This document shows, one piece after another, positions 29,820 to 32,961 of a DNA stretch of 64,000 nt. Below the pieces are notes generated by a model, which saw nothing but the letters and a program-made list of their open reading frames with translations, ran no database searches and was not told the DNA's origin. Position numbers and translations under genes: made by a program. Origin of the DNA: Prauserella flavalba (GTDB taxonomy: Bacteria; Actinomycetota; Actinomycetes; Mycobacteriales; Pseudonocardiaceae); the NCBI RefSeq assembly GCF_003202235.1, contig NZ_MASU01000001.1, forward strand, positions 62,001 through 126,000, written 5' to 3'. Each line of letters opens with the position of its first letter. The stretch's first letter is position 1.

Positions 29820-30719
29820 GTGAGCAGTGCTGTGACCGAGCGAGCCCAGCCGTCCGGGAAACGCGGAGGACGCAGGGCCCGCAGGCTCGTCGTGGTACTC
29901 GTCGTACTGGCGGGACTGCTCGTGGCCGCCGATTTCGGCGTCGCCGCGTTCGCCGAGCACACCGTGTCGCAGAAGGCCCGCGAGCAGCTGGGCCTCACCG
30001 AGGACCCCTCCGTGACGATCCACGGGTTCCCGTTCACGACGCAGGCGATCTCCGGCGAGTACGACCACATCACGGTCTCCGCGCAGGGCGTGCCCGCGGG
30101 CGACGTGCTCCGCGATCTGGCGATCCGGGCCGAGTTGCGCAACGTGACGGCACCGCTGTCCGATCTCACCTCCGGCAACACCGACAACATCAACATCGGC
30201 GACCTCGAGGGGCAGATCACGCTCAAGGCCAGCGACATCGCGCAGGTCACGCCGCTGAACAACATTCAGGACCTGCGGATCGACCCCTCCACCGAGTCCT
30301 ATGTCCGCAACGGCGAGGGCAACGACGACTCGCAGAGCGGCTCGGGCGACTCCGGCGACGACGGCGCCGCCGAGTCGCAGCAGGAGGACGAGGACGACTC
30401 CACCGCGGGCGTGCGGCTCTCCGGCAAGGTCCAGATCGCCGGCGAGGAGGTGGAGATCTTCGCGTTCGCCATGATCGAGCTCGACGGCACCACGATCCGG
30501 ATCACGCCGCACCGGCTCCAGTTCGGGAATGACCAGGAGACCACCGTCGTTCCGCAGGAGGTGCAGCAGGCTCTGCTGCCGAACTTCGAGGCGGACATCA
30601 ACGCGGGTGACCTGCCGTTCACGGTGACGCCGACCGCGATCAGGGTCGATCCGGGCTCGCTCACCATCAGCGGCGAGGCGAAGAACGTGACCTTCGCGGG
30701 GGTGTCCTCGGGACAGTGA
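29820..30719 (+). CDS. lmeA: LmeA-family phospholipid-binding protein (DUF2993)
   Basis: 299 aa. One N-terminal membrane anchor/signal segment (RRLVVVLVVLAGLLVAADFG) and then an extracytoplasmic DUF2993 domain (TIHGFPFTTQAISGEYDHIT, PFTVTPTAIRVDPGSLTISG). A Ser/Asp/Glu/Gln-rich insert (residues about 163-193) splits the domain. The mycobacterial homologue (Rv0817c, next to glnR as here) binds phospholipid and affects mannan elongation. GTG 29820 start lacks a strong RBS; GTG 29832 is possible. Confidence 0.82.
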   Translation: MSSAVTERAQPSGKRGGRRARRLVVVLVVLAGLLVAADFGVAAFAEHTVSQKAREQLGLTEDPSVTIHGFPFTTQAISGEYDHITVSAQGVPAGDVLRDLAIRAELRNVTAPLSDLTSGNTDNINIGDLEGQITLKASDIAQVTPLNNIQDLRIDPSTESYVRNGEGNDDSQSGSGDSGDDGAAESQQEDEDDSTAGVRLSGKVQIAGEEVEIFAFAMIELDGTTIRITPHRLQFGNDQETTVVPQEVQQALLPNFEADINAGDLPFTVTPTAIRVDPGSLTISGEAKNVTFAGVSSGQ

Positions 30720-30729
30720 GGACTGCGAC

Positions 30730-31194
30730 GTGACGGGCTCGACGGGGCTGTGGGTACTGGCAGGCACACTCGTGGCCGGCCTGGTCGTCGGTGTGCTGCT
30801 CCACCTGCGCAACGGCCGCATCCGCACCACCGACGACAGCGCGCCCGCAGGCCTTCCGGAGCCGGTCGCCGCGGCGCTCGCCCCAGCACCCGCCGTGACG
30901 CTGGTCCAGATCTCCACCACGTTCTGCGCCCCGTGCAGGCACACCAGGGCCATCCTGTCCCACCTCGCGGAACGCACCGAGGGGCTCGCGCACGTCGACC
31001 TGGACGTCACCGACCGGCCGCACGTCGCGCAGGACCTCGGCGTGCTGCGGACCCCCACCACGCTGGCGCTGACGTCGTCGGGCCGGGAGTTGCTGCGGGT
31101 CAGCGGCGTGCCGAAGGCACAGGAGCTGCTGTCAGCGCTCGAACCGCACCTCGTCCCACGGGTTGAACGCGGTTCCCACTCACAGGGAGGGTAG
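30730..31194 (+). CDS. Thioredoxin-like membrane-anchored protein (Rv0816c/ThiX type)
   Basis: 154 aa. A single N-terminal span (LWVLAGTLVAGLVVGVLLHL), then a thioredoxin fold with the redox motif TTFCAPCRHTR (Cys66, Cys69) and the cis-Pro region LRTPTTLAL. GTG starts 10 bp after lmeA, with GAGGA overlapping the lmeA stop. The place in the lmeA-thiX-DUF4395-sulfurtransferase run matches mycobacteria. It probably reduces disulfides or persulfides in sulfur transfer (inferred). Confidence 0.8.
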   Translation: MTGSTGLWVLAGTLVAGLVVGVLLHLRNGRIRTTDDSAPAGLPEPVAAALAPAPAVTLVQISTTFCAPCRHTRAILSHLAERTEGLAHVDLDVTDRPHVAQDLGVLRTPTTLALTSSGRELLRVSGVPKAQELLSALEPHLVPRVERGSHSQGG

Positions 31195-31199
31195 GTACT

Positions 31200-31334
31200 G
31201 TGAGCGCCGTGGACAGGCTGCCTACTCACCTCCTGACGCAACGCCGCACGGTCGATCTGTGCCGCGTGCGCAGCAGCCTGTGTTCGTCGAGCGGTTCGGT
31301 CCGGTTCGACGATCCAGCTGTGCACAGGAGGTGA
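31200..31334 (+). CDS. Cysteine-containing leader peptide ORF (putative sulfur attenuator), 44 aa
   Basis: GTG 31200 is preceded by GGGAGG at 8 nt. The 44 codons contain LLTQRRTVDLCRVRSSLCSS, matching the RRAVDLCRV-x-LC pattern that I recall from actinomycete peptides annotated as putative leader peptides upstream of sulfur and cysteine genes. The TGA at 31332-31334 ends one base before the DUF4395 ATG, and the ORF runs through that gene's AGGAGG. Translation of the leader would therefore control access to the downstream RBS. Stalling at Cys codons (positions 21 and 28) when cysteinyl-tRNA is scarce would be the obvious mechanism, by analogy with mycobacterial polycysteine leaders. Confidence 0.72.
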   Translation: MSAVDRLPTHLLTQRRTVDLCRVRSSLCSSSGSVRFDDPAVHRR

Positions 31335-31335
31335 C

Positions 31336-31773
31336 ATGTCCGCAGGCCCCGCAGTAGACCCCCGAGGCCCCCGGTTCGCCGCCGTCGTCACGACGGTCGT
31401 ACTTGCCGTCGTCCTGGTCACGGGCTGGTGGCCGCTGCTCGCGGCCCAGACCGTGGTGTTCGCGATCGGCGCGTTCGCCGGGCTGCGGCTCGCGCCGTAC
31501 TCGGTGCTCTACCGCGTGCTGGTGGCGCCGCGACTGAAGCCGACGAGCGAGCGGGAGGACGCGGCCCCGCTGCGGTTCGCTCAGGCCGTCGGTTTCGTGT
31601 TCGCGCTGGTGGGCACCATCGGGTATGTCAGTGGGGTGACCGCGCTCGGCATCGTCGCGACGGCTTTCGCACTGTTCGCCGCATTCCTCAACGCGGCGTT
31701 CGACTTCTGCCTCGGCTGCGAGATGTACCTGCTCGTCCGGCGGTTCACCCCCCGTACCGAACAAGCGTCCTGA
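31336..31773 (+). CDS. DUF4395 integral membrane protein
   Basis: 145 aa with about four spans and a conserved C-terminal cysteine pair, FDFCLGCEMYLL (Cys125, Cys128), typical of DUF4395. AGGAGG lies 4 nt before ATG. It sits between the thioredoxin-like gene and the sulfurtransferase gene, and the Cys pair suggests a membrane redox or sulfur-relay partner, which is inference. Its start is immediately preceded by the leader ORF. Confidence 0.8.
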   Translation: MSAGPAVDPRGPRFAAVVTTVVLAVVLVTGWWPLLAAQTVVFAIGAFAGLRLAPYSVLYRVLVAPRLKPTSEREDAAPLRFAQAVGFVFALVGTIGYVSGVTALGIVATAFALFAAFLNAAFDFCLGCEMYLLVRRFTPRTEQAS

Positions 31774-31819
31774 GTGATCCTTCGCCAACCACGAGTACAA
31801 GAAAGTGAGTGCCGCTCCC

Positions 31820-32656
31820 ATGAGCCGTGAAGACGTCCTGGTCACTACCCAGTGGGCAGAGGAGAATCTGGACACGCCCGGCGTGGTCTTCGCCGAGGTC
31901 GACGAGGACACCACCGCCTACGACGGCGGGCACATCCGCGGCGCCGTGAAGATCGACTGGAAGAACGAGCTGCAGGACCAGGTCCGCCGCGACTTCGTCG
32001 ACAAGGCCGGCTTCGAGGCCCTGCTCTCGCAGAAGGGCATCGGCAACGACGACCTGGTGGTCCTCTACGGCGGCAACAACAACTGGTTCGCCGCGTACGC
32101 GTACTGGTACTTCAAGCTGTACGGCCACGACAAGGTCAAGCTCCTCGACGGCGGCCGCAAGAAGTGGGAACTCGACGGCCGCGAGCTGACCACCGACGAG
32201 CCCCAGCGCGAGCGCACCAGCTACACCGCCAAGGAGCAGGACCTCAAGCTGCGGGCCTTCCGCGACGAGGTCGTCGAGGCCATCAACACCAAGAACCTGG
32301 TCGACGTGCGCTCGCCCGACGAGTTCTCCGGCAAGCTGCTCGCGCCCGCCCACCTGCCGCAGGAGTCCGCGCAGCGTGCGGGGCACATCCCGAGCGCGGT
32401 GAACGTCCCGTGGTCCAAGGCGGCCAACGAGGACGGCACCTTCAAGTCGGCTGAGGAGCTCGCCGAGCTGTACAAGGAGGCCGGCCTCGACACCTCGAAG
32501 TCGACCATCGCGTACTGCCGCATCGGTGAGCGGTCGAGCCACACGTGGTTCGCGCTGCACGAGCTCATCGGGCTCGAGGACGTGAAGAACTACGACGGTT
32601 CGTGGACGGAGTACGGCTCGCTGGTCGGCGTGCCGATCGAGACGGGAGCGAAGTGA
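31820..32656 (+). CDS. cysA: Thiosulfate sulfurtransferase (rhodanese, CysA2 type)
   Basis: 278 aa, two rhodanese domains. The catalytic Cys233 is in YCRIGERSSHTW in the C-terminal domain; the N-terminal domain is inactive as usual (GGNNNWFAAYAYWYFKLYGH). Transfers sulfane sulfur from thiosulfate to thiol acceptors. It is very similar to what I recall of mycobacterial CysA2. The gene name is that of the mycobacterial rhodanese, not the sulfate-transport ATPase. ATG 31820 aligns with the family start; GTG 31805 is an alternative closer to GAAAG. Confidence 0.9.
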   Translation: MSREDVLVTTQWAEENLDTPGVVFAEVDEDTTAYDGGHIRGAVKIDWKNELQDQVRRDFVDKAGFEALLSQKGIGNDDLVVLYGGNNNWFAAYAYWYFKLYGHDKVKLLDGGRKKWELDGRELTTDEPQRERTSYTAKEQDLKLRAFRDEVVEAINTKNLVDVRSPDEFSGKLLAPAHLPQESAQRAGHIPSAVNVPWSKAANEDGTFKSAEELAELYKEAGLDTSKSTIAYCRIGERSSHTWFALHELIGLEDVKNYDGSWTEYGSLVGVPIETGAK

Positions 32657-32961
32657 TGACGGACGGATGCGGCGCGCCTCAGCAGACCGCTGTCGCGGCT
32701 GACGAGGACACGAACGGCCAGGTGGTCGTGGCGGGCAAGGTGACGGGCGGCGACGGCCCGCTGGGCGGCGCCTACGTGCGGCTGCTCAACGCCGACGGCG
32801 AGTTCGCCGGCGAGGTGCAGGCGTCGCCGGAGGGTGACTTCCGGTTCTACGCCGCGCCGGGCAGCTGGACCGTGCGTGCCCTGCACCGCACCGGCAACGG
32901 CGAGGCCTCCGTGAGCGCGGAGGGCCCCGGCGTCCACCAGGTCGCCATCGCCGTCGCCTGA
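32656..32961 (+). CDS. sseC: SseC / DUF1416 family protein
   Basis: 101 aa. N-terminal MTDGCGAPQ with one Cys, then a transthyretin-like beta-sandwich (VVVAGKVTGGDGPLGGAYVR, FRFYAAPGSWTVRALH). It overlaps the rhodanese stop by one base (TGATG), as the cysA2-sseC2 pair does in mycobacteria. Probably a sulfur-carrier or accessory protein of the sulfurtransferase; the exact role is not established. A type A palindrome follows 10 bp after the stop. Confidence 0.85.
   Translation: MTDGCGAPQQTAVAADEDTNGQVVVAGKVTGGDGPLGGAYVRLLNADGEFAGEVQASPEGDFRFYAAPGSWTVRALHRTGNGEASVSAEGPGVHQVAIAVA

Follow-up and report, generated by a model that had tools for sequence, protein, structure and literature searches.

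Polycysteine attenuators, as ascribed to Canestrari (2020), reportedly lie on a leaderless mRNA that begins at the start codon of the leader itself, and reportedly contain a run of consecutive Cys codons. The ribosome-binding site (RBS) of the downstream gene is said to be shut by structure and opened by stalled ribosomes, with downstream expression said to rise on cysteine limitation. Canestrari et al. 2020 is cited for cysteine-dependent regulation by such leaders in the available text of three later articles (PMC9094748, PMC9031893, PMC13236596). In Mycobacterium smegmatis a small ORF with a Cys cluster precedes cysA2/Msmeg_5788 and is occupied by ribosomes, according to the available portion of PMC4633059. 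Cysteine leader peptides without terminators are also predicted in Mycobacterium, Propionibacterium acnes and Bifidobacterium longum in the excerpted text of PMC1262725, and of the eight leaders listed for Streptomyces lividans in the available part of PMC8079986 none is assigned to cysteine; PMC9386245 and PMC7790235 contribute nothing further. No account of such leaders in the Pseudonocardiaceae, or of the UGU codon discussed below, was found in the literature searched, a scope that left most subscription journals outside.

The window analysed here is a stretch of 64,000 nucleotides of Prauserella flavalba (contig NZ_MASU01000001.1), to which all coordinates refer. Between a thioredoxin-like gene (trx) and a DUF4395 gene lies a short ORF with two Cys codons, seven codons apart. 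The reading that we favour, and judge to be fairly likely, is that this ORF is a leaderless, Ms5788A-related leader which, from its own promoter, sets translation of DUF4395–sulfurtransferase–sseC by the supply of charged tRNA-Cys. The features of the locus are collected in Table 1.

Table 1. Features of the leader locus, with the basis for each
Feature	Position	Strand	Basis or remark
LmeA-type gene	29820..30719	+	upstream of trx
Thioredoxin-like gene (trx)	30730..31194	+	Pfam Thioredoxin E=6.9e-8
Conserved element GTCCCA-N5-TGAAC-N3-GTTCCCA	31153..31178	+	32 own-family loci aligned; lies in the 3′-terminal part of trx
-10 box TACTGT, proposed leader promoter	31196..31201	+	TANNNT spacing in relatives
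Leader ORF	31209..31334	+	putative leaderless start GTG 31209; 41 aa (V/M)DRLPTHLLTQRRTVDLCRVRSSLCSSSGSVRFDDPAVHRR; stop TGA 31332-31334
Anti-Shine-Dalgarno UCACCUCCUG	31226..31235	+	perfect 10-nt complement of 31325-31334; MFE fold
Conserved core RRTVDLCRVRSSLC	31242..31283	+	alignments of order, own-family and named loci
First Cys codon UGC (codon 18)	31260..31262	+	TGC in 75/79 named loci
Second Cys codon UGU (codon 25), probable sensor	31281..31283	+	TGT in 79/79 named loci
DUF4395 Shine-Dalgarno region CAGGAGGUGA, with last leader codons and stop	31325..31334	+	AGGAGG unpaired probability 0.00, predicted
DUF4395 gene	31336..31773	+	PF14340 E=4.3e-47
Rhodanese-type sulfurtransferase (CysA2/SseA-like)	31820..32656	+	PF00581 E=4.4e-33, frame from GTG 31805
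sseC (DUF1416)	32656..32961	+	PF07210 E=5.7e-38

Comparison with described leaders

The profile NF042933 (Ms5788A family Cys-rich leader peptide) matches the frame from 31200 with E=5e-7 and 29.3 bits, below its curated cut-off of 45. It has one match in the genome of P. flavalba (E 1.8e-5), and in a sample of 200 genomes from the order it matches 185 at E<=0.1 and exceeds the cut-off in 52. The window leader shares with this family the core RRxVDLCRV, the leaderless start spacing and a sulfurtransferase gene on its 3′ side, whether or not DUF4395 intervenes. It differs in its score, in having two single Cys codons where the family f8 relatives, which we infer to be of mycobacterial type, have a cysteine run, in a predicted anti-Shine-Dalgarno (anti-SD) sequence upstream of the Cys codons rather than in the Cys tract, and in a C-terminal extension to the DUF4395 start. 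The family match, together with the same kind of sulfurtransferase operon downstream (cysA2/Msmeg_5788), bears out the preliminary description of this ORF as a cysteine leader of the mycobacterial kind; judged by its sequence, the leader is related to, but has diverged from, its mycobacterial counterpart Ms5788A.

A second profile, NF042934 (cis_reg_atten, putative leader peptide), matches with E=1.6e-4 and 21.3 bits (20.4 bits in the genome search) against a curated cut-off of 27. The match spans profile positions 2-19 of 19, and three further likely members are present in the genome; unlike the window leader, these lack the first Cys and have TGC as the second Cys codon.

The cys-operon leaders in the available text of PMC1262725 likewise are short ORFs with Cys codons before sulfur genes and without a terminator, but in those the Cys codons form runs close to the stop. 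As in attenuators of the trp type, the leader holds codons for the amino acid that would be sensed; here, however, a terminator was not found between 30600 and 32000, and control is proposed at translation start. Compared with the polycysteine leaderless attenuators, the promoter spacing fits a putative leaderless start in 68 of 69 loci, whereas consecutive Cys codons are absent, and the Shine-Dalgarno (SD) sequence is predicted to be shut and to open in the model only with queued ribosomes.

Gene neighbourhood and extent of the leader

Two partly overlapping samples of loci were used. The order sample comprises 70 DUF4395 loci, the best 30 plus 40 selected with preference for places near leader matches; these include all 29 genomes of the same family as P. 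flavalba, and three further members of the genus bring the number to 73. The named set comprises the 80 named loci most similar in DUF4395, picked irrespective of leaders, partly from the same genomes as the order sample and, going by their genera, presumably nearly all Pseudonocardiaceae. The closest named DUF4395 relative is that of Prauserella endophytica, with 99 % protein identity. In the named set the sulfurtransferase and sseC are each present at 79/80 loci, and an upstream same-strand trx and an upstream LmeA gene each at 78/80; the order LmeA–trx–leader–DUF4395–sulfurtransferase–sseC (29820-32961) is kept in nearly all of them. All of the 30 best leader matches of the order sit 5′ of a sulfurtransferase, with an sseC match in 26 of the 30 fetched stretches. 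At the 23 leader loci from family f15, a DUF4395 homologue was not found within the fetched stretch. The start of the window sulfurtransferase at ATG 31820 is our own choice, the PF00581 score having been taken on the frame from GTG 31805.

The open frame runs from GTG 31200 to TGA 31332-31334 (+ strand), encodes 44 aa and contains RRTVDLCRVRSSLC; a single base (31335) separates its stop from the DUF4395 ATG at 31336, and the frame covers the DUF4395 SD, AGGAGG 31326-31331. The frame, its length and the cysteine-containing core thus stand as first reported, as does the contact with the neighbouring gene within the window. As a wider trait the contact does not stand. The leader reaches to 1 base before DUF4395 in the window and in the genus members G200 and G201, and the leader of the fourth genus genome, G202, stops 32 nt before it; among the named loci the gap is 1 in only 5/79, with a median of 76 over all 79, so that a stop adjoining the DUF4395 start was rejected as a conserved trait, and a mechanism relying on contact between leader and DUF4395 RBS is not general. 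The gap is negative in one named locus, L197, where the DUF4395 start is doubtful; these starts were assigned by script, and those of L072, L109, L110 and L192 are doubtful as well.

The C-terminal extension is unconserved in sequence among relatives. Compared with G200, codons 1-25, which end with the second Cys, carry 6 synonymous and 1 nonsynonymous differences, and the 16 extension codons 2 synonymous and 4 nonsynonymous. The extension looks like drift into a TGA belonging to GGAGGTGACATG of DUF4395, and the end of the leader one base 5′ of that gene is apparently a local quirk.

Promoter layout and start codon

A TANNNT motif lies 6-8 nt, mostly 7, 5′ of an in-frame start in 68/69 order-wide loci (the exception being L075), when in-frame start codons up to 75 nt from the core are considered. 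Out of frame, 0/265 start codons have it, and the background is 0.19 % of surrounding positions. In the named set the motif occurs at 6-7 nt in all 79 leaders (79/80 loci). The putative -10 box and start are spaced as in a leaderless gene. Since this register holds across relatives, and since GTG 31200 overlaps the -10 box TACTGT, GTG 31209 is the likely start and the leader is likely to be leaderless. The position of GTG 31200 holds no start codon in G202. The start first assigned, GTG 31200, is therefore given up in favour of GTG 31209, a correction with some practical bearing, as gene finding based on SD sequences would misplace such a start. The 'good RBS' once assigned to the ORF, GGGAGGG 31185-31191, is present with GTG 31200 here and in two close relatives; it falls between the candidate -35 and -10, leaving SD-led initiation at GTG 31200 unsupported.

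Given that a leaderless-type promoter layout precedes the leader in nearly all relatives examined, the leader is most likely transcribed from its own promoter, heading leader–DUF4395–sulfurtransferase–sseC. This weakens the proposal that the leader lies inside a longer operon after trx; in this genome the layout adjoins the trx stop. Read-through from trx, whose stop is 14 nt 5′ of GTG 31209, may also enter the leader. Of 77 named loci, 60 have more than 30 nt between the end of trx and the leader start, and in 12 the two overlap.

Upstream of the -10 box the element GTCCCA-N5-TGAAC-N3-GTTCCCA has its sole perfect match in the 8.1 Mb genome at this locus and is found, with variation, in much of the family. 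Part of it, TTCCCA 31173-31178, can serve as a candidate -35 with a spacer of 17 to the -10 box. A consensus promoter scan returned 0 sites, as TACTGT (identical to TATAAT at 3/6 positions) and TTCCCA resemble hexamers of the E. coli type poorly. Two copies of TCCCA within the element are about two helical turns apart and give it an operator-like look. Additionally, the C-terminal tail of trx (31153-31194) is encoded by the promoter DNA.

Conservation of the peptide

Leaders were found at 69/73 of the order and genus loci, at the same place in 29/29 genomes of the same family (200-genome sample) and in 4/4 of the genus. Of the four loci at which a leader was not found, L092 has both trx and sulfurtransferase, and L113-L115 are DUF4395 copies whose fetched stretches showed no homologue of trx or of the sulfurtransferase. 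Likewise, a peptide of the type RRxVDxCRVxSxLC precedes DUF4395 in 79/80 named loci; a leader was not found in the remaining one, L196 of Thermocrispum municipale.

For 25 distinct 14-codon cores of the family, identity to the consensus at codon positions 1/2/3 is 0.93/0.97/0.77, and pN/pS over the core is about 0.16. The peptide is therefore conserved more than the DNA, which likewise supports the preliminary description. The core appears to be under purifying selection and the C-terminal extension to be drifting.

Cysteine codons

The second Cys codon is TGT not only throughout the named loci (Table 1); it is also TGT in 67/69 order loci and 23/23 f15 loci. Among the Cys codons of the neighbouring genes at the named loci (LmeA, trx, DUF4395, sulfurtransferase and sseC), TGT accounts for 49/550. 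The two codons preceding the Leu are AGC in 70/79 and 72/79 named loci, respectively, AGC making up 900/3827 Ser codons in the neighbour genes. Retention of AGC-AGC-CTG-TGT for pairing with the DUF4395 SD was considered and rejected, complementary runs averaging 6.0 compared with 6.5 in shuffles and 1/79 loci reaching p<=0.05. The f15 leaders share the AGC-AGC/UGU bias although no DUF4395 homologue was found in their fetched stretches. Pairing with the DUF4395 SD thus fails to explain the frozen codons. The fixed UGU may instead have been selected because a cysteine codon that is decoded slowly would serve as a sensor.

RNA structure and accessibility of the Shine-Dalgarno sequence

The predicted fold of 31200-31360 has an energy of -79.7 kcal/mol (z -3.5) and pairs UCACCUCCUG with CAGGAGGUGA. 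Predicted accessibility of the DUF4395 SD is 0.00 in the window, with 0/16 shuffles as shut, and likewise in G200 and G201; the SD of G202 is predicted not to be shut (0.24; 9/16 shuffles as shut). Over 50 loci with a recognizable SD from 22 genera, each compared with 16 dinucleotide shuffles, accessibility of the DUF4395 SD falls below the shuffle mean in 43/50 loci and 20/22 genera (Wilcoxon p 5e-6). Median SD accessibility in the named set is 0.20 for DUF4395 versus 0.51 for the sulfurtransferase of the same loci, with a p of 2.5e-14 that is overstated because the loci are related.

A ribosome placed as a block at the second Cys raises accessibility by more than in shuffles in 17/22 genera (p 0.006). 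No general extra opening was seen when the first Cys was blocked (9/22 genera positive, p 0.29) or when two ribosomes queued there (8/22 genera, p 0.48). In the window itself a lone ribosome on the first or the second Cys codon does not open the SD (0.00). A queue of two at the first Cys brings it to 0.36-0.76 over three footprint sizes; at the second Cys two queued ribosomes give 0.00-0.19 and three give 0.58-0.82, again over three footprint sizes. A longer queue must therefore be assumed, a single stall leaving the SD shut and two ribosomes at the second Cys opening it little. For so GC-rich an RNA the modelled figures support a site shut by default over any one route of opening.

The predicted position of the anti-SD varies: it lies in the Cys tract in f8, just 3′ of the last Cys in others, and 5′ of the Cys codons in Prauserella and its kin. 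An anti-SD at the LLT codons was rejected as a general feature, the pairing positions differing among loci. No Rfam match was found within 30700-32000, and intrinsic terminator-like sites in 30600-32000 number 0 (mean 0.4 in shuffles). By eye, ACAGGCTGC (31213-31221) perfectly complements GCAGCCTGT (31273-31281) around the second Cys codon; this pairing crosses that of anti-SD and SD, and an alternative fold or a pseudoknot is possible.

Proposed mechanism and alternatives

If the leader sets translation by the supply of charged tRNA-Cys, cysteine would be the signal, and the putative leaderless transcript would respond in the following direction. With cysteine plentiful, ribosomes would clear UGC 31260 and UGU 31281, after which the anti-SD 31226-31235 would pair with the SD 31325-31334 and shut it. 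With Cys-tRNA short, the Cys codons would hold ribosomes up, the rare UGU being the most likely site; those queued behind the stall would cover the anti-SD, the SD would be freed and the sulfur genes translated. Family match, the setting 5′ of sulfurtransferase and sseC, promoter spacing, purifying selection on the core, the UGU bias, the predicted SD closure and the kinds of genes behind the other leaders of the genome speak in favour of this model. Both NCBIfam cut-offs missed, the lack of a cysteine run, an anti-SD whose position is not fixed within the family, the long queue needed in the window, the SD of G202, the missing extra opening at the first Cys across genera and the 0 sites of the promoter scan count against it.

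Within the window the leader stop adjoining the DUF4395 ATG could bring about coupling of opposite sign. Ribosomes ending at TGA 31332 would be sitting over the DUF4395 SD and would initiate again at ATG 31336, and since DUF4395 would then need leader translation, a shortage of cysteine would lower its expression. The single base between stop and start, the SD beneath the terminating ribosome and the gap of 1 in 3/4 genus genomes are what such translational coupling would build on; other named relatives keep the leader at quite different gaps, however, and the extension that places the stop there is unconserved, so that we consider it unlikely. Transcriptional attenuation, for instance by Rho acting in an untranslated stretch when ribosomes stall or clear, is less probable still. 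Rho-dependent termination is a weak prediction for mycobacterial cys leaders in the available text of PMC1262725, but here no intrinsic terminator-like site was found in 30600-32000, the leader frame extends to the SD and leaves little untranslated RNA, and the predicted closure is of an SD and hence acts at the level of translation.

A similarly small chance is given to arrest of the ribosome by the nascent peptide, on another sulfur or redox signal rather than Cys-tRNA supply. Conservation of residues such as R-R, V-D and R-V roughly equals that of the cysteines, and the other leaders of the genome, which have no first Cys, also contain R-R, D and R-V; the fixed UGU, however, is a constraint on the codon and not on the peptide. 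As for an SD-led ORF of 44 codons, initiated at GTG 31200 on the message of the trx operon, the GGGAGGG and GTG shared with two close relatives fit it, whereas the overlap of that GTG with the conserved -10 box and its absence as a start codon from G202 make it highly improbable.

Control by Cys-tRNA supply can also be given a more specific form, a cysteine switch read by collision, in which the rare UGU senses and the queued ribosomes, not the stalled one, mask the upstream anti-SD and open the gene, the anti-SD having moved between lineages with peptide, promoter spacing and UGU fixed; we offer this tentatively and regard it as doubtful. If control by Cys-tRNA supply is right, the mycobacterial cysteine-responsive leaderless attenuator would extend to Amycolatopsis, Prauserella, Saccharomonospora and their kin, where two codons rather than a cysteine run would act as the sensor. 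A fixed UGU combined with a wandering anti-SD yields testable predictions on what such leaders read.

Other leaders in the genome

A search of the P. flavalba genome with NF042934 at E<=10 returned 15 places: the window leader, three that score better, two of which exceed the cut-off, and 11 weak ones at E 0.09 or worse that are taken as chance. Further leaders with the same core are L002 (C5:237927), L003 (C1:144954) and L004 (C14:140342). Between them, these three precede two genes of the TauE/SafE exporter type and a gene of the ferredoxin sulfite/nitrite reductase type, frames that were recognized by eye.
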